A DNA stretch of 64,000 nt, from assembly GCF_018283455.1 (NCBI RefSeq), contig NZ_JAAMTH010000001.1, positions 3,081,501 through 3,145,500 of the forward strand, in the 5' to 3' direction. The position numbers and the translations under genes are program-made. This stretch comes from Planococcus sp. MSAK28401 (GTDB lineage: Bacteria; Bacillota; Bacilli; Bacillales_A; Planococcaceae). This document shows, one piece after another, positions 16,161 to 36,853 of this stretch. Each line of letters opens with the position of its first letter. The first letter of the stretch is position 1. Below the pieces are notes generated by a model that did not search any database, had not been told where the DNA came from, and saw only the letters and a program-made list of their open reading frames with translations.

Positions 16161-17174
16161 TTGAAAAAGAACATGAACTATTTGATCGTTCTGCTACTGG
16201 CTATCTTTATGGCCGGTTGTACCGAAACAGAACAAGCGGCAACTCCAGAAACCGCGGTGCAAGAACAAGCCGCTGTTGAAACGGAAACGCCGGAAGAAGC
16301 GGAAGCCGACACCGAAGCGACAGAAGCAAGCAACGAGGAAGAAACTGCCGCAAGCGACACGGAACAAGGCGACACGACTGTTGAAGAAGAACCGGAAGCA
16401 GAAGAACCAGCCCCAGAACCTGCGCAAGAACAATTCGAAGGATACGAACTCGTTGAAGTGGACGGCGGCGATTTGTCGGGCCATCGCGAAGCGAATACCG
16501 TCGTCTCCATTGGCTTCGACGACCGTGAATACTGGGCTTTCACGAATGAACACGGCCAATTGGAACGCGTCACGGCGGACGAAATCATTTTGCAAGATGA
16601 CACGAGCGAAGATGTATTAGATTCCGGCCGCTATTATTCCGACGAAGCCAAAGTGCCAGGGGTCGAGAGCGACATCTTGGACGAAGGGCACGTCATCGCG
16701 GATTCACTCGGTGGCGTCTCGAACGCCTATAACATCACCCCGCAAGAAAGCACGCTCAACCGCCACGGCGACCAGGCGTATATGGAAGACGTCATTCGGG
16801 ATGCGGGCGGCGCCACGGATTTCGAAGCGATCATCACCTATCCCGACACCGAAACGCAAGTGCCTTCCAGCTACCAATACAGCTACACCGTCAGAGGCAA
16901 CGAAGTGATCGACACATTTGATAACGTCAACCCTGATGAAGTCAACGCCTCCCTCGGTTTGACGGAAAGCGAACCCGCGGAAGCGGAATCAAGCGCTCCG
17001 GAAACGAGCAGCCCAGCCGCAAGCGGTGACGTCTCGAGCGTCGACGCAAACAGCAACGGGCAAGTGACGATCCAGGAAGCGAAAGACGCCGGCTTCACTA
17101 TGCCCATCATGAGCGATCATTGGCTGTATCCGCATATGCGCGATAACGATAATGATGGGATGGTTGGGGAATAA
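16161..17174 (+). CDS. DNA/RNA non-specific endonuclease-type lipoprotein with calcium-binding tail
   Basis: A 337-residue lipoprotein. The start is a TTG at 16161, placed nine bases after GAGGAG. The later in-frame ATG (16173) is too far from it. The lipobox is FMAGC (Cys20), followed by an acidic Glu/Thr/Ala linker to about 90. Residues about 150-260 match a Endonuclease_NS_2-like nuclease: DEGHVIADSLGG with candidate catalytic His177 and NITP around Asn191. The C-terminus carries an EF-hand-like DANSNGQVTIQEA and DNDNDGMVGE, an excalibur-type calcium segment. Probably a surface nuclease for nutrient or competence DNA. The domain calls are by motif only. Confidence 0.78.
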   Translation: MKKNMNYLIVLLLAIFMAGCTETEQAATPETAVQEQAAVETETPEEAEADTEATEASNEEETAASDTEQGDTTVEEEPEAEEPAPEPAQEQFEGYELVEVDGGDLSGHREANTVVSIGFDDREYWAFTNEHGQLERVTADEIILQDDTSEDVLDSGRYYSDEAKVPGVESDILDEGHVIADSLGGVSNAYNITPQESTLNRHGDQAYMEDVIRDAGGATDFEAIITYPDTETQVPSSYQYSYTVRGNEVIDTFDNVNPDEVNASLGLTESEPAEAESSAPETSSPAASGDVSSVDANSNGQVTIQEAKDAGFTMPIMSDHWLYPHMRDNDNDGMVGE

Positions 17175-19088: not shown

Positions 19089-21509
19089 TTAGTTTCTATT
19101 AATCGCTCTCCGCTCAAAATAAGCATGCAGCCGATATTCAGTAATTTCCTTTGTCCACTCATAAAGAATTCGCTGATGCTCATTACTTGGAGATACGTTC
19201 AATGAAAATAAATTATAATCAAACGTCACCAAGCCTTCTTTCGCACTGCCGCTCCATTTTGTCATCGGCATGCGCTCAATCAGATCTGCAATTTTCTTTT
19301 CATCGTAGTCTCTGAGCTTTCTGCCCTGCACATCATTGAAATCAGCATTCAAACGGTATTGTTTCGCTGTCAGGAACTCGTGGAAATACGGCGCAGCTTC
19401 CACTGGCGTAATCGGCTCCAGCCAGCTCTCCACGCCTTTCGACAACATATAACTCAAAACAACCATCTTATAGCTTTTGTTCATGCCAGTCTTCTCGACT
19501 TCCAAAAACCAATTCTGATGCTTTGTCCATACTTCAATCTCATCTGCATTCAGCTCCGCCGCATAAGCTAGCAAACCGAACCAGCTGCCGAACTCCTGCT
19601 TGATCGTCTTCGAATCCCCCGTACCTTGGAGATGAAATTCCAAATAAGTCGGGCGCCTGCCGAGCTCCCGTTTTAATTCACGGTAAGCAAGAACCAGTGC
19701 TTCTTTTCTAGGCGCGCGTTTTTTCCGCAGCTCTTCCAACAAATTGACGACTGCCAATTCTAAATTGAAATCGCAATTTGCAGGAACTAAAGGTTCGATA
19801 CCTTGAGTTTTTCCTTTAGCTTGAGGCGCTGTATCAAATACCGAAAGCTTCAAATCGGCGTTGCGGTAATTGCCGATAAAATCGATAATTACGCAATGAT
19901 CTTTTTCGTCCGCAATGCGCAGTCCCCGGCCGATCTGTTGGGTGTAAACCGTGAGTGACTCAGTCGGTCGAATAAACAGCAAGGTATCGACTTTTGGAAT
20001 ATCGACACCTTCATTGAACAGATCGACCGTGAAAATGATTTCTAACTCACCTGAATCCAATTGTGCTCTCGCAGCTTTCCGCTCTTCTGCAGGCGTACCG
20101 CCCGACAAACTCATCGAACGAATGTCGCGCTCCCGGAAAAACTGGTCCATAAATTGCGTCTGCCGGACCGTCGAACAAAAGACAATCGTACGCGTTTGTT
20201 TGTGCTTTTGCCACGCCTCAAATACCGCTTTAGCATAGTCTTCCCTCAACTGCGCTTGAAGAAGTTCCTCTTCGTCGTAGCGGTTCCCGAGCCAGCGAAT
20301 CTTCGAGTAATCGGTATTATCGTATACACCGAAATAACGAAACGGCGCCAGCCAATTGCGTTCGATGGCATCGAGGAAATGAATAGAAATCGCAACATTG
20401 CCATCACATAAGGCATATACATCCTGATTGTCCATGCGGTCAGGAGTTGCCGTGATTCCAAGCAAAAACTGCGGATTAAAATGTTCCAATAGCCTTCTAT
20501 AAGTCGGGGAAGCTGCATGGTGGAATTCATCCACAACGATTAAATCGAATGCATCCCGCTCGAATTGAGCCAAGTGATACTCACTTCCCAGTGTATAGAT
20601 GGAAGCAAACAGAAAATCCGCGGATGTGTCTTTTTCAGTTGCATGGTAGAACGCAGACTTTTTATATGGGTGAACTTTTTGGAACGATTCTTTTGCCTGC
20701 TGGAGGATCTCCTGGCGATGTGCAACAAACAACACTCGCTTGAATTTCTTCGCAAAAAATGCCGCGAGATAGGTTTTTCCGAGTCCTGTCGCAAGTACAG
20801 CCATCGCCCGACTATACTCTTCTTCTATCACCGTATCGAGTGCATCAAGTGCTTCCTGCTGGGCAGGCCGAGGCGTTAATTCAGTTATGTAAGGTGTTTC
20901 TGTTTCAATAATTTCCTGGGGTTCTGATGACCCGAGCATAAGACCAGTTTCTTCCGCTTCTGACCAAACAGGGCTGATTGGTCGTTTGAGATTCGCTTTT
21001 TCATGAAGCATCTTGTATTCCTGGAGCGTTTCTTTGTTGAGAGGAATCGTCTCATCTGCGTAGAAATGTGCTAAAAACTGCTCAGCCGCTTCATCAAATA
21101 CCGTCTCATCTACTGAGGTCGGAGCGATTAAATTCCATTCCACCCCTTCCGTCAAAGCGGAGCGGGACAAATTGGACGAGCCGACAATAAGATGCGAAGT
21201 TTCTTCACCGCGGAATAAATATGACTTGGGATGAAAGGAAGCGCCTCCGCTTTTCCACAAGCGAATTTCAGCAGACGGTAATTCATCCAGCAAAATCTCA
21301 AGTGCTTCCGGCTGCGTTACAAAAAGATAATCACCGATTAATAATTTGATCGGCACACCTCGGTCTGCCGCTTCTTTCAAGAACGGTATCACGATTCGCA
21401 CACCCGATTTCATCGCAAACGCCGTAATCCAATTAATCTCTATAGCTTCTTGAGCTAAGCGATTCAAATGACTCACGAGCTGCGAAGTGACCAGCTGCAG
21501 TTTACTCAT
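19089..21509 (-). CDS. PLD-nuclease/DEAD-box helicase fusion
   Basis: An 806-residue protein. The N-terminal ~160 residues form a phospholipase-D-type nuclease domain with HPKSYLF and GSSNLSRSA (HxK...GSxN). An SF2 helicase core follows: Walker A ATGLGKT (about 240-246), DEFH (about 327-330), TATPDR, and the motif VI region QQIGRGLRIA. The C-terminal 200 residues have no named domain I can assign. The architecture resembles restriction or mobile-element defence helicases. The ATG at 21509 overlaps the upstream pyrophosphohydrolase gene by eight bases, so the two are coupled. A TTG two codons earlier is an alternative start. Probably defensive, by context. Confidence 0.87.
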   Translation of the reverse strand: MSKLQLVTSQLVSHLNRLAQEAIEINWITAFAMKSGVRIVIPFLKEAADRGVPIKLLIGDYLFVTQPEALEILLDELPSAEIRLWKSGGASFHPKSYLFRGEETSHLIVGSSNLSRSALTEGVEWNLIAPTSVDETVFDEAAEQFLAHFYADETIPLNKETLQEYKMLHEKANLKRPISPVWSEAEETGLMLGSSEPQEIIETETPYITELTPRPAQQEALDALDTVIEEEYSRAMAVLATGLGKTYLAAFFAKKFKRVLFVAHRQEILQQAKESFQKVHPYKKSAFYHATEKDTSADFLFASIYTLGSEYHLAQFERDAFDLIVVDEFHHAASPTYRRLLEHFNPQFLLGITATPDRMDNQDVYALCDGNVAISIHFLDAIERNWLAPFRYFGVYDNTDYSKIRWLGNRYDEEELLQAQLREDYAKAVFEAWQKHKQTRTIVFCSTVRQTQFMDQFFRERDIRSMSLSGGTPAEERKAARAQLDSGELEIIFTVDLFNEGVDIPKVDTLLFIRPTESLTVYTQQIGRGLRIADEKDHCVIIDFIGNYRNADLKLSVFDTAPQAKGKTQGIEPLVPANCDFNLELAVVNLLEELRKKRAPRKEALVLAYRELKRELGRRPTYLEFHLQGTGDSKTIKQEFGSWFGLLAYAAELNADEIEVWTKHQNWFLEVEKTGMNKSYKMVVLSYMLSKGVESWLEPITPVEAAPYFHEFLTAKQYRLNADFNDVQGRKLRDYDEKKIADLIERMPMTKWSGSAKEGLVTFDYNLFSLNVSPSNEHQRILYEWTKEITEYRLHAYFERRAINRN

Positions 21510-21828
21510 CTTCAACCTCGATTAAAAAGATACGTTCTTTAAAACCGCCGCGTTTTGCTGCTTTTTTCACGCGAACTTCTTCAACTTCTTCAAATGAGGA
21601 TCCATTAAGTTCAGCAGCTGCATGAATCAGTTCGAGAATGTCTGCGAGCTCCTCTATTGCATCTTTTTTATTATCAGTTTCCTCAAATTCACGAAGCTCC
21701 TCTGAGAGTTTTTTCGTTACTTCTGTTTTATATTCTTCTTCTAACAAAATACGGGTTTCGAATTGAAGACATCTTTTTTTGATTACTTGCGGAATTTTGT
21801 CCCTTACTAGTTTGTTGTAAATCGGCAT
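21502..21828 (-). CDS. MazG-like nucleoside triphosphate pyrophosphohydrolase
   Basis: A 108-residue all-alpha NTP pyrophosphatase-type protein. It begins MPIYNKLVRDKIPQVI, a signature of phosphoribosyl-ATP-pyrophosphohydrolase-like/MazG-like proteins. The metal-binding acidic residues are seen in KLSEELREFEE and AIEELADILELI (ExxE then ExxD pattern). Such enzymes split NTPs to NMP and pyrophosphate. Strong site AAAGGAGATC. The stop overlaps the helicase start (ATGAGTAA), arguing for a functional pair in which nucleotide depletion or sensing is tied to helicase/nuclease action. That link is inference. Confidence 0.85.
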   Translation of the reverse strand: MPIYNKLVRDKIPQVIKKRCLQFETRILLEEEYKTEVTKKLSEELREFEETDNKKDAIEELADILELIHAAAELNGSSFEEVEEVRVKKAAKRGGFKERIFLIEVEDE

Positions 21829-22457: not shown

Positions 22458-23627
22458 TTAAATATCGAATACCTCTTGTTTAAATCTAGGTTCTACTTCA
22501 TCAATCATAACTCTTTTCTTTCCGCGTAAGTTTTCAAGTTGTAGCTTAGGTGAAGCCTCTACAAAATCATACTCAATTTTTGCGAAGGTCTTTAAGATGG
22601 CTTCAAACACAACTTGTGCACCAAGCGGCGGCACAGCCATACCAATCTGTTTGCGTACAGCTTCTTTATTGCCAGCGAACACAAAGTCGTCAGGGAAAGT
22701 CTGCAAACGTGCACGTTCTCTGTTAGTCAAAGCACGCAGTTCTTCCCAATGATACATATGCGTTCCACCACCACCACTGCCTGTTACCGTGTACGCCGGG
22801 CGTTCTGGATCTAAACGTTTATAAATTGAACTCATACGTGCACCCTTAACTTTAAGTTGCACTTTCTCAGGAATTCCTGGATACCAAGCGTTACTGCCTG
22901 GCGGTATGTAGCTCAACATCTCTTTAACTTTAGCCGTGTGTTTCGGCATTTCGTGGTTCGTAGCATCTTCTGGTATAGGCGGATTTAGGATCGCTTCGGA
23001 TGCCGTTTTGTATTCAGTCGATGCAAGCGTAGTTGGCGCCGGCACTTTGAACACAATTCCTTCTTCGACTAGATCGTTTCGAATTCCTACAATGATAATT
23101 CGATGTCTTGCCTGTGGTACCCCGTATTCTTGAAACTTATATAAATGAGGAGTTAATGCATATCCGCACTCTTCAAGTTCAGTCAAAATTTGAATAAATG
23201 CTTTTCCTTCATTAGCTCCTTGGAGTCCGCCAACATTCTCAGCCACGAAAAACTTAGGTTGGTAGTCCTTTAAGACTTTAACCCCGTAGGTATATAAAGG
23301 CCCGAACTTGCCGCCTAATCCTTTTGTTTCGCCAACAATACTAAAGTCGTTGCAAGGAAAACCGAAAGCAAAACAGTCAATGTCACCGAGAATTGTTTTA
23401 TCACCAATCGGCAATTCTTCAACAGGTCCCCAATGTACAGATGGATCATCTGGATTTCCACATATATTTAAACGAAAAGTCTCACATGCTGTAGCATCAT
23501 AATCGTTCGACCAAAGGTGCTCAATTCGAAATTCTTCTCCTGTTTCAGGATGAATAACCTTTGCATTCTTTGCTGCTAAACTCAGCCCACCTGGACCGTT
23601 AAAAAGTTCACCTTTTTTAAATATCAT
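22458..23627 (-). CDS. DNA (cytosine-5) methyltransferase, first copy
   Basis: A 389-residue C5-cytosine methyltransferase. Motif I is the variant FNGPGG (usually FSGxGG). Motif IV GFPCNDFS holds catalytic Cys92, motif VI is ENVGG, motif VIII QARHR, IX RLQTFPDDF and X IGMAVPP. The target-recognition region lies between about 200 and 310. AAGGAGCG precedes the ATG. The divergent Vsr gene and the downstream PD-(D/E)XK nuclease gene suggest a type II restriction-modification unit. The recognition sequence cannot be read from the protein. Confidence 0.94.
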   Translation of the reverse strand: MIFKKGELFNGPGGLSLAAKNAKVIHPETGEEFRIEHLWSNDYDATACETFRLNICGNPDDPSVHWGPVEELPIGDKTILGDIDCFAFGFPCNDFSIVGETKGLGGKFGPLYTYGVKVLKDYQPKFFVAENVGGLQGANEGKAFIQILTELEECGYALTPHLYKFQEYGVPQARHRIIIVGIRNDLVEEGIVFKVPAPTTLASTEYKTASEAILNPPIPEDATNHEMPKHTAKVKEMLSYIPPGSNAWYPGIPEKVQLKVKGARMSSIYKRLDPERPAYTVTGSGGGGTHMYHWEELRALTNRERARLQTFPDDFVFAGNKEAVRKQIGMAVPPLGAQVVFEAILKTFAKIEYDFVEASPKLQLENLRGKKRVMIDEVEPRFKQEVFDI

Positions 23628-23815
23628 AATAAAAATCGCTCCTTAGTGGAATTATGCGAAAGTATGTTCTTGCATACCCCTATGCTTATTAATTATACAC
23701 TTTAATAAAAAAAAAACATCCTCATGTATATATTTGTTGGTCTCGTTAAATCCTATTTTCGCTTAGTGTATCTTTTCTTTGAAGGGGAATAATATAAAAA
23801 AGTGAGGGATAGGCT

Positions 23816-24253
23816 ATGGCAGATAAAATTACTAAAGAACAGCGCCGGAAAAACATGCAGGCCATTAGGTCTCAGTCAAATTTGGAAAATAGGGTTTCTC
23901 GTCTGCTTTGGAACAAAGGCTACCGTTTCCGTAAAAATGATCGAACACTTTTCGGTAAACCAGATATTTCTATAAAGAAGTATAAAGTTGTAATTTTTAT
24001 CGACTCGTGTTTTTGGCATGCGTGCGAGATCCATGGAAACAAACCTAAAAGTAATAAAGTTTATTGGGACAGGAAGCTTGCAAGAAATAAAGAACGGGAT
24101 TTGGAAGTAACTGCACATTACGAAGAAAAAGGATGGTTTATCAAAAGGGTTTGGGAACACCAAATTAAGGAGGATCTTGAAAAAACAACTGAAGAATTAG
24201 CTCTTTTTATACAAAAAGCCAAAGAGCATTCTTCTTGGAAAAGAAACCTTTAG
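23816..24253 (+). CDS. vsr: Very short patch repair endonuclease Vsr
   Basis: A 145-residue Vsr family nuclease, which nicks next to T:G mismatches that arise when 5-methylcytosine deaminates. Family landmarks: MQAIRSQSNLE, GKPDI with the catalytic Asp, FIDSCFWHAC with metal/zinc-site residues, and WDRKLARNKERD. A GTGAGGGA site precedes the ATG. It is divergent from the first cytosine methyltransferase, exactly where a Vsr is expected: it guards the sites that enzyme modifies. Length is typical of the family. Confidence 0.93.
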   Translation: MADKITKEQRRKNMQAIRSQSNLENRVSRLLWNKGYRFRKNDRTLFGKPDISIKKYKVVIFIDSCFWHACEIHGNKPKSNKVYWDRKLARNKERDLEVTAHYEEKGWFIKRVWEHQIKEDLEKTTEELALFIQKAKEHSSWKRNL

Positions 24254-24599
24254 CTTTTTCTAGTTAGTAATTTTAGGAGCAACGTACTCCTGTAGCTATC
24301 TGAAATTTTTATACGTAAGACTAAACATAAACTAAGGTTTTCTACCTTGTTAACATAATCTAAATTTTAAAACATAATTTACAAAACTAGGAATATAGAT
24401 CTGTCCTTCTACTTTTCCTCTTGTTTAAAATGTTTATACTAAATGAGACTTTTCGAAGCCAGCTCAATAGCAATACTCGCTTACTGGTATACTATAACCT
24501 CCTCATCTGTAAATATTTGATAACATGTACTATACTAAAATGAATAATTTTTTCAAAACCGTGTTTGAAAAATTAAGTTATCTATCATTGGAGGCAATT
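24254..24599. other. AT-rich spacer
   Basis: No gene seen. It separates vsr from the nuclease gene, and the last 60 bases include promoter-like TA-rich boxes and the nuclease ribosome site. No convincing controller-protein palindrome is visible. Confidence 0.4.
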
Positions 24600-25766
24600 A
24601 TGACTATATTAGATCTTTGGAAAACCAGTAGGAGTAGTTTCGAAAACAAAACAATTGAACAAATTTTGTCTTTTTCTGGAACCGGTAAACTTACTGATTC
24701 AAGTGAAACATCGATAGAGTTAAAACATTTTCTTGATCATATGCCAATTGATTATTTGGAAAGGTATGCTCACGATTGTTTAGATCAAAATTTCCCTAAC
24801 AGCGGACTTGTATTGCAAGACATCACAAACCAAATAGGAAAAAGAATTGGTTTTGATGTGAAGTATGGTCTTTATCAAGGACGCAAAGGAAGCATCGGTT
24901 ACGATGGTCTTTGGAAAGCAATCGACTCGCATAGTATTGTTGTGGAAGTAAAGACAACAGATGCTTATAGAATAAATTTAGATACAATAGCAAAATACAG
25001 AAAACAGCTGATTGCCCAAGAGTCTATTACTTCAGAAAAATCATCTATTCTTATAATAGTAGGAAGACAGGACACAGGAGATCTAGAAGCTCAAATTAGA
25101 GGTTCCAAACACGCCTGGGACGTTAGGGTCATAAGCGTTTATGCCTTAATAAAGTTAATGAAACTTAAAGAACAATTAAATACTAGACAAACATTTAATC
25201 AAATTAATGAATTGCTAAAACCACTAGAATATACGAGGGTTGATAACCTAATTGATATTGTTTTTAATGCTTCAGAAGATATTAATTCAAATGATGAGAA
25301 TACAATAAACAAGGACTCGTCAGAAGATAATTTAACTAAAGAAAATCGGGCTAGTTACCATGATTTGTGCATTGCTCGATTAGAAGAAAAATATTCGACA
25401 AATTTTTTAAAACAAGGAAAGTCATTCTATATAGACAACACTAATAGTCAACATTTTGTCTGTATAGTTTCGAAAGAATATCCTAAAAAGGACAGTATTC
25501 GATATTGGTATGCTATCCATCCAAGGCATATTGAATTTCTTAACCAAAGCACCGCTTCAAATATTGCTTTTGGATGTGGATCAGAAAAGAAAATTATTAT
25601 AATCCCAACAGAAATTTTCATTAACCACATTGATGAGTTTCGCATTACTACTAAAGATAATGGAAATTTTTATTGGCATATAGACATCATTGAAAAAGAT
25701 AAAGAATATTTTTTACTTCTATCCAATTCTAAAAATCAAGTTAATGTGACAAAATATTTCTACTAA
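24600..25766 (+). CDS. PD-(D/E)XK nuclease, probable restriction endonuclease
   Basis: A 388-residue AT-rich gene. The active-site pattern GYDGLWKAID followed by VVEVKTTDAYRI (D...ExK) around residues 100-125 is a PD-(D/E)XK nuclease core, as in type II and IV restriction enzymes. The remainder has a second globular region (about 240-388) with no named domain, perhaps DNA recognition. The start at 24600 follows TTGGAGGCAATT. The ATG at 24525 has no site. It is the likely restriction partner of the first methyltransferase, with vsr in between. The pairing is inferred from position. Confidence 0.72.
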   Translation: MTILDLWKTSRSSFENKTIEQILSFSGTGKLTDSSETSIELKHFLDHMPIDYLERYAHDCLDQNFPNSGLVLQDITNQIGKRIGFDVKYGLYQGRKGSIGYDGLWKAIDSHSIVVEVKTTDAYRINLDTIAKYRKQLIAQESITSEKSSILIIVGRQDTGDLEAQIRGSKHAWDVRVISVYALIKLMKLKEQLNTRQTFNQINELLKPLEYTRVDNLIDIVFNASEDINSNDENTINKDSSEDNLTKENRASYHDLCIARLEEKYSTNFLKQGKSFYIDNTNSQHFVCIVSKEYPKKDSIRYWYAIHPRHIEFLNQSTASNIAFGCGSEKKIIIIPTEIFINHIDEFRITTKDNGNFYWHIDIIEKDKEYFLLLSNSKNQVNVTKYFY

Positions 25767-26008: not shown

Positions 26009-26033
26009 CTTCAAAATCCCCCAAATTTTCTTT

Positions 26034-26070
26034 AAAAAACAACCTGCCTTTTTAAGGCAGGTTGTTTTTT
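26034..26070 (-). terminator. Terminator of the MORC/Z1 operon
   Basis: A perfect 17-bp stem (26034-26050 with 26054-26070) gives T-runs on both strands and overlaps the stop codon of the last operon gene. Confidence 0.9.
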
Positions 26071-26989
26071 AAGCTAAAAATGCTAAATCAATGTCTTCAG
26101 ACTCAATTCCTTTTAAATCAATTGAATACATTATTTTTACTATATGATCTAAAAATTCATTTGGGACTGCTTCTCTAAAGTTGATCAACGGAAATTTTTC
26201 GTCGATAGGATAGGACTTCATTTCATATAGTCGATATTTTTCTTCTCTAGATAAAGAGTTTTTCTCAAATCCTTGATTAATTAATGCTTGTTCTAACTTC
26301 GCTTTAGGATAGCCTGCTTTATCCAACAAATCCACTGTTTCATTAATCGACTTTCCATCTTCAGCTTTTTCGAACCTGCAAAAAATCAAAAATTGATTTC
26401 TAGCAGCATTTAACTGAAATTGATTAGAGATTTGAATAATATTGTCTGTTCTTAAGGTAGTAGACTTCACTTCATACATGCCTATGTTACTTTCTATATC
26501 TACCGTAGCTTGTAAATGCCCACTCCATACCGTAGAAGTGTTTATATTATAGAGCCATAATAAAGCAGTCAATTCCCCCAAGATACTATAAGGTTCTTTT
26601 GAAACAGCTTTATTCCCAATTAGTTGCTTGTAGCTAGACCACCATTCTACCGGATTGTTTAGAAGATGTTTTCTGTCTTCACCATCAGAACCAGGGTCTA
26701 CTAAAATAGAACATATCGAAGCAAATTCATACCTGAATTCTTCATTCCCTGAAGTTAGACAAAGGAAATTTTTTTCTCCCTCATTTGTCACGATAAAGCG
26801 GGTTTGAAACACAGCACTTGAAAATCTTTCATTAACTTGGATATCAGGATCGATTTCTACTGCTACTCCATACTTGCCATAATCACGAAATACCCAGTAG
26901 TCATAGTCACCCTTACCAGCTTGTAGCTTAACCATTTTTCCTGGCTGAATATTCGATAAATAACTTCTTATCTCCTCTACATTACTCAT
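26069..26989 (-). CDS. DUF4420-type PD-(D/E)XK protein (last gene of the operon)
   Basis: 306 residues matching the PD-(D/E)XK motif family formerly DUF4420. The active-site core is GELTALLWLYN, then WSGHLQATVDIESNIGMYEVKSTT (D...ExK), about residues 135-180. The fold belongs to restriction-like nucleases, so this is a plausible DNA-cutting subunit. The start at 26989 is chosen because AAGGAG stands seven bases before it. That places it 4 bases after the methyltransferase stop. A longer frame to 27010 would overlap. Last of six closely packed genes. Confidence 0.85.
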   Translation of the reverse strand: MSNVEEIRSYLSNIQPGKMVKLQAGKGDYDYWVFRDYGKYGVAVEIDPDIQVNERFSSAVFQTRFIVTNEGEKNFLCLTSGNEEFRYEFASICSILVDPGSDGEDRKHLLNNPVEWWSSYKQLIGNKAVSKEPYSILGELTALLWLYNINTSTVWSGHLQATVDIESNIGMYEVKSTTLRTDNIIQISNQFQLNAARNQFLIFCRFEKAEDGKSINETVDLLDKAGYPKAKLEQALINQGFEKNSLSREEKYRLYEMKSYPIDEKFPLINFREAVPNEFLDHIVKIMYSIDLKGIESEDIDLAFLA

Positions 26990-26993
26990 ATTC

Positions 26994-28352
26994 TCACTCC
27001 TTAAAATCATTAAGGCTATTTTTAACGGCCTCAGCTACTGCTTTCGATAAGAGAGGAGGGACCGCGTTACCTATTTGACGAAAAGCTTCGGTCATAGAGC
27101 AATTAAAGTAAAAATCATCCGGAAAAGATTGAAGACGGGCTGCTTCTCTCACAGAGATTCCACGAGCTTCCCAAGGATGTATATGACTATACGTGTCTGT
27201 GCTTAGATGAGCCACAAGTGTATGAGAAGGTTTAGAAGGATCTAATTTCTTCCATTTTGACAAAAACTTATTTATAGCATATGGAGGGACTATCGATTTC
27301 TTTAAAGCTTCATACAATTCCGGATGTGATTTTGCACGTATTCCTCGCTTTGAACATTCTTTTGCCAAAATTTTCATTGCTAGATCATGAGCATCACGAT
27401 AATTGTCATTCGGTTTCATTTCTTCAAAGATCTTAAAATCTCGTTTAGTTCTTCTAAAGCCATGACCACTTACAGAGGTTCTTTCGTTATTATTGAAAGA
27501 TCTCATTAATCGTTGGTACTCATTTTGAGGAGAGCTTTTGTATGGAAGAGTAATTTCTGGTTTATATAATTTATATACGCTGTTAGAAGTCGGAAATAAT
27601 GATGGCAGATCAGACAAAGCGTCGCCAGCTGTCACCCAAAAAGGCATAGAATGATCGGCTTTTCTGGGCTCAATAAAATGTTTATTCTCCCTAAGCTTCG
27701 GTATCCTAGATCCGTTAACAGTTTTCACAGAATCATCTGGTTTTTGGTGCGTTGGCATCGGCATTTCAATTTTTGCCGTAAATTCTCTTTTAATCGCTAT
27801 TACGAAAACGCGCTCACGAATTTGAGGTACTCCATAATCTGCTGAGTTCAGCAGTGTCCAAGAAGCTTCATAACCTCGCTCCTCTAAAATTTCACAAACT
27901 CTTTCAGGTACATTCATCCCATTGTAATTAACCGATTCAGGAACATTTTCCATTACCACTGCTTTGGCATCCACAGTGAGAGCTACTCTTAGAAAATCCT
28001 CGAATAAAAACCCTCGGCTGTCTTTAAATGCACTGCGATCTTCTCCCAATGAATTTAATTTAGCTCTGCCTGCTAATGAGTAAGCTTGACAAGGCGGACC
28101 TCCTATAACTATAGGATTTTCAGTTTCCTGCAAAAAATCTTTGAAATTCGCGGTCGTAACATCTCCGCATAAATGTTCGTTCTCTATACCTTTTTTCCAG
28201 TGCAGATTATAGGATGCAGTATTCGCAGCAGCATCGTTTAGTTCCATTCCTGCTTCTATATAAAATCCTGCCTCTTGAAAACCAAGAGCCAATCCCCCGC
28301 ATCCCGAAAATAAATCAAGGACTTTTAATTGTTTAGCAGCTGTCTTAGTCAA
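26994..28352 (-). CDS. DNA (cytosine-5) methyltransferase, second copy
   Basis: A 452-residue C5 methyltransferase. Motif I FSGCGGLALGF (from residue 15), motif IV GGPPCQAYSLAG with catalytic Cys88, motif VI ENVPES, motif VIII QIRERV, IX RLQSFPDDF, X QIGNAVPP. The variable target-recognition region lies in about 215-370. It starts with TTG at 28352, overlapping the preceding gene by eight bases. No nearer ATG exists and the ribosome site is distant, so translation probably couples to the upstream gene. It would protect the host at sites attacked by the operon's nuclease. Clearly distinct from the first methyltransferase. Confidence 0.93.
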   Translation of the reverse strand: MTKTAAKQLKVLDLFSGCGGLALGFQEAGFYIEAGMELNDAAANTASYNLHWKKGIENEHLCGDVTTANFKDFLQETENPIVIGGPPCQAYSLAGRAKLNSLGEDRSAFKDSRGFLFEDFLRVALTVDAKAVVMENVPESVNYNGMNVPERVCEILEERGYEASWTLLNSADYGVPQIRERVFVIAIKREFTAKIEMPMPTHQKPDDSVKTVNGSRIPKLRENKHFIEPRKADHSMPFWVTAGDALSDLPSLFPTSNSVYKLYKPEITLPYKSSPQNEYQRLMRSFNNNERTSVSGHGFRRTKRDFKIFEEMKPNDNYRDAHDLAMKILAKECSKRGIRAKSHPELYEALKKSIVPPYAINKFLSKWKKLDPSKPSHTLVAHLSTDTYSHIHPWEARGISVREAARLQSFPDDFYFNCSMTEAFRQIGNAVPPLLSKAVAEAVKNSLNDFKE

Positions 28353-29019
28353 AATAATCGAATAGCTCCTTTACGTAACCTCTCGTTCCTCCGTTATGGA
28401 GAGCCGGTTCAATCATTTTACCTCGAGTCGTATTTAATTTCATTACTTTACGGAAAATACCCGCGCTCCTTCCTTTACGGGATACCTCAAGATTTCCGTA
28501 ATAATTCATAATTTCTCTGTAAAGATCAATTCGATATCCTAAACTGCCTATACGCTCAACAAGCTGTACAACATCATCGGTCGTATTGTTTTTTAAAATT
28601 TCTAATGTCTTCTCTTCTGAACCTTGCCATGAAAGGTGAATATACCACCATAAAGATTTAAAATATATCCGTGTTGGATGACTGAAAAATCTAGTTTCAT
28701 TAGCAGTCCATCGGCTGTATACAACATCAGGAAGCAAAACTAGAGAAATGTATCTCCATTTTCCGTCTTGAGATGCATCCCTTTCAGAAAAGTTATATAC
28801 TTCGTTTATTTTTTTATAAAAGTAAAGACCAAGCCGTAGATCATATTCATACATGGAGCCGTTCGATTCAGCAATGGTACTTTTAATAGATTTAGAATAC
28901 TCTATAATATCTTTTCTAAATTCATCACTCCCTTTGGGGAAAGATAAATTTTCAAAATCTCTTTTACTTAATTCAGCAAACTTTTCCGCAGCATCTTTTC
29001 TACTTAGTTCTCCGATCAA
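28345..29019 (-). CDS. DUF6339-like protein of the operon
   Basis: A 224-residue helical, soluble protein with an aromatic central part (YISLVLLPDVVYSRW, YFKSLWWYIHLSW). It resembles the DUF6339 family, which I recall from similar methyltransferase-Z1 operons. The function is unknown. The TTG start at 29019 overlaps the previous stop by the four bases TTGA, with GGAGG nine bases before it. Its position between the 321-residue protein and the methyltransferase makes it an integral subunit. Confidence 0.6.
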   Translation of the reverse strand: MIGELSRKDAAEKFAELSKRDFENLSFPKGSDEFRKDIIEYSKSIKSTIAESNGSMYEYDLRLGLYFYKKINEVYNFSERDASQDGKWRYISLVLLPDVVYSRWTANETRFFSHPTRIYFKSLWWYIHLSWQGSEEKTLEILKNNTTDDVVQLVERIGSLGYRIDLYREIMNYYGNLEVSRKGRSAGIFRKVMKLNTTRGKMIEPALHNGGTRGYVKELFDYFD

Positions 29020-29981
29020 AACCCTTCGCCTCCTACTCTAGACTCCCAGTCATTTCGTATCGAAGCTGCTAGTTTTTCTGGAGAAGATATATCCCAGTTA
29101 AATGTCGTTATAAAATAGAATATAGCCTCTCCAATGGAGCCGCTTTCGAAACCGTTGCCGTTCAAAATGTTCTGGCTGTCATCTTCTTTCATAACTTTTT
29201 CTACAATTACATGTAGTGCAGAACTGATTATCTCGGTCAGAACAGGGTTGTTCATCTGCTCTTTTTTACCACTAACAATATTGTAATTTTTATGAGCCAT
29301 ATTTAAATTGATAGCTATGTTTTCTTCCGTAAAGGAGTCACTCATAACATCTGTGTAGTTGAACGTTACGTACCAAAGCGGAGCTTCAGGAGCATGCACT
29401 TCAACAATTGGGAAAGCTGAACTTTGCCCGTCTATTACGAAGTTCTTGAAATCCAATACTCCTAACACAGTTCCACTATTCGATGCATATGAAGGACTAA
29501 CTACACTGGAGGGTTCTTCTAAGTAAAGTACTAATTCGACAGTTAATTCTCCAAAAAGCTTTTTCTCTGAGAATTTTAAAGTATGCTCAAGAACACATCT
29601 TCCTTCTATGCTTCTGTCTATAACTTTTACTTTTTCAGTACCTCTCTGCTTCGAACTTTTCGAGTGCCACCTCAACGCGAATCCGACTTTCGCATCGTCC
29701 GTTGCTACTCCATTACCTCCAAATAAAAATTGAGGATTATTAATGTAACACTTGAAGTGTATATTCAAATCATGTTCGTTCACATCCCAAATTGCATCCT
29801 TATCTTCTATTAGAACAGTATTTTCATCTAAGCCCATTTCAAACTGAGCATCGTCTTCTAAAACTAGTTTTCGGATTTGGCCATTCAAAGTGTGGCTCAA
29901 AGAAACCGGCTCAGCTTCATACCCAATCTTCATAAATAATTTTTCATTCATCTCACGATAAAACTTTAATTCACTGCTCAT
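29016..29981 (-). CDS. Unknown 321-residue subunit of the operon
   Basis: A soluble protein beginning MSSELKFYREMNEKLF. Predicted beta-rich in the middle (FGELTVELVLYLEEP, PLWYVTFNYTDV) and helical toward the C-terminus. No catalytic motif, nucleotide-binding loop or zinc cluster is visible. The start overlaps the ATPase stop by four bases (ATGA), so it is made in step with the ATPase. It may be an adaptor or recognition subunit. I do not recognise the family. Confidence 0.55.
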   Translation of the reverse strand: MSSELKFYREMNEKLFMKIGYEAEPVSLSHTLNGQIRKLVLEDDAQFEMGLDENTVLIEDKDAIWDVNEHDLNIHFKCYINNPQFLFGGNGVATDDAKVGFALRWHSKSSKQRGTEKVKVIDRSIEGRCVLEHTLKFSEKKLFGELTVELVLYLEEPSSVVSPSYASNSGTVLGVLDFKNFVIDGQSSAFPIVEVHAPEAPLWYVTFNYTDVMSDSFTEENIAINLNMAHKNYNIVSGKKEQMNNPVLTEIISSALHVIVEKVMKEDDSQNILNGNGFESGSIGEAIFYFITTFNWDISSPEKLAASIRNDWESRVGGEGF

Positions 29982-32032
29982 GTATTTAGCACCTCTTTTG
30001 TAGCAACAGAAACTGCAGCTTGCACAAATGAATCATTTCTTGTAATTTTCATCTTCCCTTTAAGCTTCAACTTTTCGTTGCCAGTCCTAATCTCAATTCC
30101 GCTAATTACTTTGTTTATCTTGGTATAGTCATATTTAAACTGGAATTCTCTAAGTTTTTCAGCCGGATTTAAATACTTGTTATATTTAGCGTCATTAATT
30201 TCTTCAATGTAAATGTTTTCAACAGCAAGCGGGAATGGTGTTCCAATTCCCTTATCGCCTTCCCAACTGTTGCCTTTCATATGGCCTGTCTCAGAGGGTA
30301 CAGTTAACTCAAATTGACCAATATGATTTTTCTCAACATTCAACTCGAAGACTATATCAAGTTTGTTGTTTTCGTTGATCTCTTGATCAATAATTTCGAA
30401 TCCAGCTTTTCTAATTTGCGAGGTCCCCTTACCTCCTTTACCACCGCCCCCTCCTGCAGGTCCTGGACGTTTGCCGAAATTTTGTGGAGGTAATAATTTA
30501 GAAGCTAATGAACGGCTTAAGTAACTTCGTTTCCCTTTCTTAACTTCTGCACTGTCTTCGGCATAAGTTTGACGAATAGTTTTGTTAACATTATTTTGGA
30601 TACGTGAAATAATCGTTATTTTTTTTTCCTCATCAATTAAATCTTTCCATGATGTATGATCGGCTTTTTCACTTCTGCGCAAGTATTGTTCGAGATTTTT
30701 ATATTTTTTCATGTATTCACTTTTAAATTCACTTTCAGAGTTTGGAACAAATACTCCGATAATAAATTGGGTTTTGTCTGCCGAAGGAATATCGGCACAC
30801 CATGCGCCATCTATTTCGTAGTTTACAATCATCCCTGGTTGTCTTAAATATAAAATCAAGGGCGGATTTTGCCCTTCCTCTACTGCTTCCAAGTTACTGT
30901 ATAAATAAGGGGTATACTGGTTTTCCGGAGGAAGCATATTCAAATCTTTCATATCGAATTTGCTGTATGCAATCTTTCCTGCATTTCCCCCTGCTGTTTC
31001 TTTAAAATCGATTCTTAAATTTATATCTTCAACACTGAAATCTGCAATTGTGTTGGCTTTTGATGAAATCTTATTTTTTGTTTTACTCAAAGCTGCATTA
31101 TACATTTCTTGAACTAGCTGAAAGTATCTCTCCATTGAGTTGAACTGTATCTTTTCACCTCCAACACGGGCATCTAACCAGCTTCCGTAAGGATACTTGG
31201 GATTATCAAGCCTTGGGCTATACCAGCGTTGGAACGCGATGGCTAGATAATTATCAATTTTATTATTCCACCAAATTTGCTGATCCTTTGGCAACAACCT
31301 CTCTTCATCAATAAAAGGTATAATAATTTTAGTTCCGGTTTCTTCATCTTTATAAGGGTCTATTGAAAAAACCTGTAAAATCTCTGCTATTTCTTTTTCA
31401 TTTGTTAGCGGGACAGTTGCATCTTCTGCAGACTCTTGCCCCCACCAAGCGATCCCTCTTTTCGGTTTATTGTCCATTGAAGGGAGTAAGGCTTCCGGTT
31501 TACTCTCATCTTCGACCATAGTAGCAGCTAGTCTATGCTCGTATTCTCCGTTTTCTTTTTGAATGCGCGAGTAGTAAAAAACTAAACCAATTCCAAAGCG
31601 GAAATAAACAGTTTTCCCTAACCCCCACGAACCGCCTGCACCCTCCTTTTGTTGAGGTATGCTGATTTCATATACTAATTTTTGCAGATTTCCATACTCA
31701 TTGTCTTCTACTTCTTCAGCATAAAATGGACCTGTTAAACCTACGGTGTTTGTATCAGCAATATACAAGGCTTTTGCTGATTTAGCTCCAAACCTTTTCT
31801 TTAGGCCTTCTTGGATGCCGTTCATATGACCAATTAAATCATCAGCATAAAAATCTTTAGAACCGATATCCACTACGACCGAATCTTCTCGTCCGGCTGA
31901 AGCATCTAAACTATTTTGCACTGCCTCTCGAATTAATAAATCGAGCAGAGGTGTATCATTATTTTGCAATAATTTTAAAAGAGAGCTGCCTCTCTCTGCC
32001 ATTCGAGCATGTTTAGCTACTTCAATTTTCAT
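29978..32032 (-). CDS. GHKL/MORC-type ATPase of the operon
   Basis: 684 residues. The N-terminal region has a GHKL ATPase fold (Hsp90/MutL/MORC superfamily). The N-box-like REAVQNSLDA is at about 35-44 (Glu and Asn for metal and ATP), DTNTVGLTG at about 93-101 corresponds to the DxGxG motif but with Asn/Thr in place of one Gly, and GGSWGLGK is at about 133-140. A Gly-rich linker (PGPAGGGGGKGGKG) leads into a C-terminal beta-rich domain. ATG at 32032 overlaps the Z1 gene end by 11 bases. Such ATPases are thought to clamp DNA and drive looping or loading of nucleases. Confidence 0.82.
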   Translation of the reverse strand: MKIEVAKHARMAERGSSLLKLLQNNDTPLLDLLIREAVQNSLDASAGREDSVVVDIGSKDFYADDLIGHMNGIQEGLKKRFGAKSAKALYIADTNTVGLTGPFYAEEVEDNEYGNLQKLVYEISIPQQKEGAGGSWGLGKTVYFRFGIGLVFYYSRIQKENGEYEHRLAATMVEDESKPEALLPSMDNKPKRGIAWWGQESAEDATVPLTNEKEIAEILQVFSIDPYKDEETGTKIIIPFIDEERLLPKDQQIWWNNKIDNYLAIAFQRWYSPRLDNPKYPYGSWLDARVGGEKIQFNSMERYFQLVQEMYNAALSKTKNKISSKANTIADFSVEDINLRIDFKETAGGNAGKIAYSKFDMKDLNMLPPENQYTPYLYSNLEAVEEGQNPPLILYLRQPGMIVNYEIDGAWCADIPSADKTQFIIGVFVPNSESEFKSEYMKKYKNLEQYLRRSEKADHTSWKDLIDEEKKITIISRIQNNVNKTIRQTYAEDSAEVKKGKRSYLSRSLASKLLPPQNFGKRPGPAGGGGGKGGKGTSQIRKAGFEIIDQEINENNKLDIVFELNVEKNHIGQFELTVPSETGHMKGNSWEGDKGIGTPFPLAVENIYIEEINDAKYNKYLNPAEKLREFQFKYDYTKINKVISGIEIRTGNEKLKLKGKMKITRNDSFVQAAVSVATKEVLNT

Positions 32033-34844
32033 TAAAATCACCTTCAGTTTCATTTTCTTCAATTCTCTTCAATTGCACAGTTAATTTTTTAGCTAAATTT
32101 CTATTCTTTTTGCCAGGGACAAGTATACTTATACCAATAATATCCTCATCAAACTCTAAATCAAATCTATTATGCTTCTTAGCATTATCAGCGGATGCTG
32201 TTCTAGTTGTAGACTTAGCGTCGACACGATAAATGAGTAATTGAGGCGTTTTTCCTAACCCTACTTCTTCTCTGTTGCTGTGTACTTCTTCAGTCTTCAC
32301 ACTTAAATCACTGATTTCCGAGCTCTTTTGTATGCCCAAATGTTTTAAATGATTCATATCAAAATCTTTGTATACATCTGAAGGATTTTTCAAAACCCCA
32401 ATACTTACTCTGTCTCCAAACTTAGAAAATTCACCTTTTCGAGTACGCGCGACTTTACCCACGTTATAACTATTTAATTGCCAACCCTCTTCATTTTCAT
32501 CAACCTTGCCCCGGCCTCCAACTATTACATTCCATCCAGTAAATTTTTCTTCCTTACTAATACTCTTATACCATTCAATAAAAGCTTCTATTTGATCGAA
32601 TACAGGAGAGCTTTCAAAAACGTATTCGGTTAATATAGCTTCTACCTTTTCAAACGGCACATATTCCCACAACAGCCCTACTTTATCAAGCGTTACTTTA
32701 GGCTTATCTAGAGAATTCAAAAAATCTTCAGTTATTCTAATATTGTTTTTTAATACCTCTTTGTCATTTTTAAAAACAACCGTCTGACTAGATGTACCAG
32801 AGAAATCTAATTCTGTTTCTACAGCGTTCTGCATTCTATTCTTTGCAGTAATTCTAAGCCAAGAAAGCTGGGGAGAGTTTTTAATACGCGGCCCTACTTC
32901 GTTTGGTTTAGCCGTTCCGAGAAGAAAGGGTCTTAAATCTTCTCTCAATTCATATTCTAATGAAGCTAGGAAGCGAAACTTTTCTTGTGTATCTTCAGTC
33001 ATCCAAATTCTCGGCAATAGTTCGTACCCTTTTCTGTATCCGAACCATCTGCCCATTTGCATCAAAGTATCTCCTTGTTTCGTTGACCTAAGGAAGAAAG
33101 TACTGACGAGGCCTTCAATGGTCAAACCTCTTGAAAGGGTACTGCCGCCAATAATAATGAAAGCAGGTGCATCACTTTCTACACGAGAACTGTTTTTATC
33201 TGGATAAGCCAATCGCACATAAGTATTCTCATCATTTAGACCATTATTAGCACAGTTATCAATGCACAAATGCGTTCCAGCATGATACTGCAGATCTCCT
33301 TCTTCGTTCAATTCAATATGTGAAAGCCGATTCTTTAGACTAGAAACATAAACGATTATATCTTCAAAGTTCGGATAGTCATTTATATTTTCATCCGGTA
33401 TGCCATATTCAGGATAGCTTTTTCTAAAGTCGTCTTTAGTAAAATTACTTTTTTCTTCTTCGTATAGGGTTTTTGCTTGTTTCAAAAACTCTTTTTCAGA
33501 AAGACTGTTCAACCATCCTTCTATTGATTCAGCAATATATTTGTGGTGAGCCTGTTGTTGACTTGTATGTATAAGCATACTCACAGGTTTTTTATAGCCT
33601 CTAAATCTTTGAACCGCTGAAGCACAGTAAAACCATATTACTGCTTTCTGCAATGCCGACGGAAGTTGAGTGGATTTTCCTTCATGAACTTTTGAAACCT
33701 CTTCTAAATTCCCTTGACAAATGTCTCTAATAATATTTAGACCGCTGTATTCCTCAGTTTCATAAAGACCAAAGATCTCTTTGGGTCCAAAATATTCTGC
33801 TGGTGTTTTGAGCAGTCCAATAAAATCTTTCGGATATAATGATTCTTCTGTTGTTTCATTTAGAACATTAGCGTATGGCGTTGCAGTATAACTTAAATAA
33901 TTCATGGCTTTTGGTCTTGCATTATTTTCTTTTTTTCCATTCACTAGTTCAACTATCAAACTGTTGATACGCGCTCTCTCTTCCTTCTCAGTATCTAAAG
34001 TGTTAATTCCAGCTTGATCCGCTTCATCATCGATTACTAATATTTTCATTTGTCTCAATTTATTCTCGTCAGCATATAACCACTTTAATAGGTTTTCCAG
34101 CCTCGTTTTATGTTTTAAACATACTGTTAAGTAACGTCTTCTATCTTGTTCTCCAAAGTGAAGATTTTGTGTACTATTTGCTGCAGACGGTCGTTTAGCA
34201 GGGTTATCCAATGCTTGCCAAGCAAGCGTACCAGCGTGATTCAAATCTCCAATCAATCTCTCCTCTGTCTGTTTTCTTAAATTATCAATTAAGCCAGACA
34301 GCACTACAAACATATTCCAGCCATGATCCGCGGCCATTGCCATAAGCCCAGCCATGTTGGCAGTTTTTCCTGATTGAACGTTACCTATAACCAAACCTTT
34401 GACTGGACCACTTACTGTAGTATCCTGATTTAGTTTTTTCAAAATATCTAAAGTCGTATTTTCTAATTCGTTAATCGAAATAACGGACCAACCATCATTA
34501 ACTAATTTCGATTTGTATAATTGCCAAGATGAATGAGGGTTCTTTGGAATTCTAGCATCATTGTTCGATTTATCTGAGATGAGAATAGTCCGGTCCCCGG
34601 CTTCTCTAAACTCTTCTTCTTCTTTTTCAACCTTCTGTAATTCTTGTGTTATTTCAACCCAATTTTCTAATGTTATTGAAGATTCAATAACCCCCACGCT
34701 TTTTAATAGTCCTATCGCATCTTCTAAACTTTGATTATCAGTACCCGCTGAAGATATTATAGACTTCCAGCTTTTACCGTTTGCCTTCATATTTTTGATA
34801 GTATTTTTTATTGCATCATACCTTGGTCCTGAGTATTTACTCAT
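32022..34844 (-). CDS. Z1-domain SF2-type ATPase/helicase (first gene of the operon)
   Basis: 940 residues. Walker A is GNVQSGKT (154-161), the Walker B/DEAD box VIDDEAD (270-276) and motif III YTATP (319-323). The Z1 signature GGSTLSRGLTIEG (566-578) and QMGRWFGYR (596-604) form the second helicase half. Z1 proteins are found in predicted restriction-modification clusters. AACAGGAGGAG precedes the ATG. It opens a run of six genes with overlaps or gaps of at most four bases. It likely translocates along DNA to connect recognition with cleavage. Confidence 0.9.
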   Translation of the reverse strand: MSKYSGPRYDAIKNTIKNMKANGKSWKSIISSAGTDNQSLEDAIGLLKSVGVIESSITLENWVEITQELQKVEKEEEEFREAGDRTILISDKSNNDARIPKNPHSSWQLYKSKLVNDGWSVISINELENTTLDILKKLNQDTTVSGPVKGLVIGNVQSGKTANMAGLMAMAADHGWNMFVVLSGLIDNLRKQTEERLIGDLNHAGTLAWQALDNPAKRPSAANSTQNLHFGEQDRRRYLTVCLKHKTRLENLLKWLYADENKLRQMKILVIDDEADQAGINTLDTEKEERARINSLIVELVNGKKENNARPKAMNYLSYTATPYANVLNETTEESLYPKDFIGLLKTPAEYFGPKEIFGLYETEEYSGLNIIRDICQGNLEEVSKVHEGKSTQLPSALQKAVIWFYCASAVQRFRGYKKPVSMLIHTSQQQAHHKYIAESIEGWLNSLSEKEFLKQAKTLYEEEKSNFTKDDFRKSYPEYGIPDENINDYPNFEDIIVYVSSLKNRLSHIELNEEGDLQYHAGTHLCIDNCANNGLNDENTYVRLAYPDKNSSRVESDAPAFIIIGGSTLSRGLTIEGLVSTFFLRSTKQGDTLMQMGRWFGYRKGYELLPRIWMTEDTQEKFRFLASLEYELREDLRPFLLGTAKPNEVGPRIKNSPQLSWLRITAKNRMQNAVETELDFSGTSSQTVVFKNDKEVLKNNIRITEDFLNSLDKPKVTLDKVGLLWEYVPFEKVEAILTEYVFESSPVFDQIEAFIEWYKSISKEEKFTGWNVIVGGRGKVDENEEGWQLNSYNVGKVARTRKGEFSKFGDRVSIGVLKNPSDVYKDFDMNHLKHLGIQKSSEISDLSVKTEEVHSNREEVGLGKTPQLLIYRVDAKSTTRTASADNAKKHNRFDLEFDEDIIGISILVPGKKNRNLAKKLTVQLKRIEENETEGDFNEN

Positions 34845-36675: not shown

Positions 36676-36713
36676 ATGCTCCTGTGCTGATTGATCAGCC
36701 GAACTGAATAACT

Positions 36714-36749
36714 GAAAAGATCCTCGGTTCTCGGACCGAGGATCTTTTC
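36714..36749. terminator. Terminator
   Basis: The perfect 15-bp stem GAAAAGATCCTCGGT (36714-36728) pairs with 36735-36749 around a 6-base loop. T-run downstream. Confidence 0.9.
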
Positions 36750-36853
36750 GTTTTTATGACTTCTCCGGCTCTTCTTTCCTATCTTTCCCACGGCAACTTC
36801 CCCCCACCCACAGCGTCCATTCTTAAAACCCCACTCCCAGGAGGCGCTGTGTG

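Follow-up and report, generated by a model that had tools for sequence, protein, structure and literature searches.

What do the six minus-strand genes at positions 26069..34844 of a 64,000-nucleotide stretch of the Planococcus sp. MSAK28401 genome (contig NZ_JAAMTH010000001.1; hereafter the window) do together, and which of them form a fixed apparatus? All six genes of the restriction operon that a preliminary description had seen here were located, and the interpretation given there is partly borne out. The operon very probably encodes a system predicted to mark the host's own DNA and to cut unmarked invading DNA by means of two ATP-driven machines. The operon type itself is a prior prediction; what is added here is that its cutting and marking parts can be swapped. 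Among relatives, a core of four proteins (the helicase, a GHKL ATPase, g4 and g3) stays constant, and the nuclease and methyltransferase are exchangeable on it.

In the window, the exchangeable parts are a C5 cytosine DNA methyltransferase of 452 residues (26994..28352, minus strand), with intact GPPCQ and ENV motifs, and a DUF4420 PD-(D/E)XK nuclease of 313 residues (26069..27010, minus strand), whose catalytic residues E146-D171-E180xK182 are intact and invariant across 9 of 9 aligned proteins. Both are as the preliminary description had named them. Conservation of the whole neighbourhood, compared over 15 sister loci, held for the core but not for the ends: DUF4420 occupies the nuclease slot in 10 loci and is replaced by a PLD-family protein in the other five (L036, L037, L075, L076 and L077), while L068 and L069 lack a methyltransferase within the operon and have C5 enzymes 1.2 and 6.2 kb upstream. 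In Pfam, the L036 and L037 nucleases are good matches to RE_NgoFVII, and their match to its C-terminal B3-like domain lies at the cut-off; a profile of these two detects the remaining three at 217-318 bits. A profile of all five aligns to PDB 4rct (R.NgoVII) over residues 12-334 (E 6.6e-10), and H86/K88 and GSANF are conserved in all five. The methyltransferases form two groups. Members of the first sit within the operon ahead of DUF4420 (7 loci); those of the second follow the nuclease (7 loci, with 253 intervening bases in L076). L034 carries both. Since L070 pairs DUF4420 with a methyltransferase of the second group, the two ends mix too. In every core-gene tree (four genes, 14 rows) the PLD loci lie on one side of a single branch, and thus a single exchange suffices in this sample.

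Of the two core ATPases, the one labelled a Z1-domain SF2 (superfamily 2) ATPase in the preliminary description (32022..34844, minus strand) carries Walker A at residues 154-161, DDEAD at 272-276 and DTLMQMGRWFG at 592-602, together with matches to region profiles. The other (29978..32062, minus strand; 694 residues from a TTG start, 684 from an internal ATG at 32032) had been called GHKL/MORC-type. The GHKL part of that assignment stands, with N-box, G1 and G2 present, but MORC proper does not: the GhXhhpXXRhl motif that marks it (PMC2292703, available portion) is absent from this protein in a motif search. In the same source, paraMORC2 proteins combine GHKL ATP-binding motifs with an ExxxH located C-terminally within the S5 domain, and ExxxH is found here at E465-H469. 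Among the aligned ATPases, the N-box is present in 14/14, G1 in 13/14 and G2 in 14/14, and ExxxH falls at about residues 450-480 in 14/14 as judged by residue position. We therefore describe this protein as a paraMORC2-type ATPase; it also matches the PADLOC PDC-M33A profile (8e-13).

The two small core proteins follow. The one without an assigned family is g4 (29016..29981, minus strand, 321 residues), which has no Pfam family, and the one called DUF6339-like is g3 (28345..29019, minus strand, 224 residues), which is indeed DUF6339-related. AlphaFold2 models were built on 14-sequence alignments. That of g3 is all-helical (predicted local distance difference test, pLDDT, 86; predicted template modelling score, pTM, 0.84). 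That of g4 has a beta-sandwich, predicted to be immunoglobulin-like at residues ~12-186, and a helical C-terminal part (pLDDT 84, pTM 0.56). Structure matches of g3 and g4, none of them strong and for g4 made without a Foldseek search of PDB, included no nuclease or nucleotide-binding fold. All sequences in the g3 alignment share seven arginines, which might conceivably bind DNA or an acidic partner. The operon ends, as had been described, in a Rho-independent terminator (26032..26072, minus strand), recognised by sequence and fold though absent from the terminator scan listing; its stem overlaps the last stop codon.

The GHKL-g4-g3 order is shared with PDC-M33, a PADLOC candidate system (A/B/C). 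Profile-profile comparison by hhalign gives 99.2% for A, whose GHKL protein is homologous, 81.4% for B (a weak match) and 90.7% for C; the PADLOC B and C profiles have no direct match in the window. Thus, g4 and g3 are probably distant counterparts of PDC-M33B and PDC-M33C. CglI and NgoAVII have a PLD-B3 endonuclease where the window operon has DUF4420. The Type I putative defence system of PMC9523054, in the text available, has three core and three additional genes; the operon here has six genes. That system is also tied to DNA repair endonucleases, in keeping with which 9 of the 15 loci have a Vsr gene within the sequence fetched. That text leaves the three additional genes unnamed, so we infer that they are paraMORC2-g4-g3; it contains neither a mechanism nor nuclease exchange. 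Similarly, the available text on the third operon type and the paraMORC2 family (Iyer et al. 2008, PMC2292703) does not describe g3 or g4, and the Corynebacterium diphtheriae BH8 island (PMC5379612, as far as available) differs in carrying an extra EcoRII-like enzyme; its three unclassified proteins might correspond to GHKL, g4 and g3. MZA (mzaABCDE) has MORC where the window has paraMORC2, and the window operon has g3 and g4 in addition; the window proteins score far below the NCBIfam cut-offs for MzaC (242.9 of 1500 bits) and MzaD (48 of 420 bits). Immediately upstream of the core operon in L034 (14623-19841) lie an AIPR protein, Vsr, an HNH protein and a further C5 methyltransferase; Type I and MZA-like parts are mixed in this locus.

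Methylation could instead guide exclusion or abortive infection without cutting of incoming DNA, through a BREX-like block or through cell death on sensing, with the nuclease regulatory or directed at the host. In outline, the joining of a methyltransferase to a large ATPase complex resembles BREX. MZA, a distant relative, is labelled as validated in the available part of PMC9523054. Its MzaE component is an AIPR protein, and AIPR is present in the MZA-like locus L045. However, a family search found no AIPR among the six operon proteins, the DUF4420 catalytic residues are invariant, and the swap partner of the nuclease is another restriction endonuclease family; we consider such non-cutting schemes improbable. 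The combination of GHKL ATPase, helicase and methylation, along with the Vsr genes noted above, also recalls MutL systems, which are treated in Iyer et al. 2008 (PMC2292703, available portion). Against this stand the patchy spread of the operon (a survey of 261 genomes from the order finds g4 in 9), the exchange of restriction nucleases and methyltransferases among loci, the adjoining restriction cassettes and the location in a low G+C island, which make a MutL-like role very unlikely. Marking of self and cutting of unmarked DNA remains the preferred reading.

A second cassette adjoins the operon (22458-25766). It comprises a C5 methyltransferase of 389 residues (22458..23627, minus strand), a Vsr mismatch endonuclease (23816..24253, plus strand) that lies outside the six-gene operon and probably repairs 5-methylcytosine deamination, and a 413-residue protein without a family (24525..25766, plus strand), in which a D...EVK pattern seen by eye suggests a putative PD-(D/E)XK restriction enzyme of this cassette. 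Close relatives of the cassette methyltransferase occur in CglI-like, AlwI/BpuJI-like and PDC-M33 loci and next to two sister operons (L048, L052, L053, L066, L067, L087 and L090). Further along, an 808-residue protein (19089-21515) with PLD, ResIII, Helicase_C and HNH_repeat domains is an odd companion of two C5 methyltransferases; its layout resembles that of SauUSI-type modification-dependent enzymes. An Endonuclea_NS_2 gene (16161-17174) has a 70% identical counterpart next to the operon in genome G730 (L035, 870-1895); common to differing islands, it may indicate a Planococcus integration hotspot. About 2.4 kb with an open reading frame of 341 residues in another Planococcus contig (L004, 906-3307) is missing from the window at 36681-36753.

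Since 2008, the part that MORC-like ATPases play in bacterial restriction has been a matter of prediction. The sister loci put a relative of R.NgoAVII, from an enzyme family with known biochemistry, in place of an uncharacterised nuclease, and the contribution of the paraMORC clamp is therefore measurable; with a CglI-kind enzyme in the slot, it can be asked what the trio adds. The DUF6339-like g3 and g4 gain a context, and there are grounds for regarding PDC-M33, MZA-like and CglI-like systems as one family of machines.
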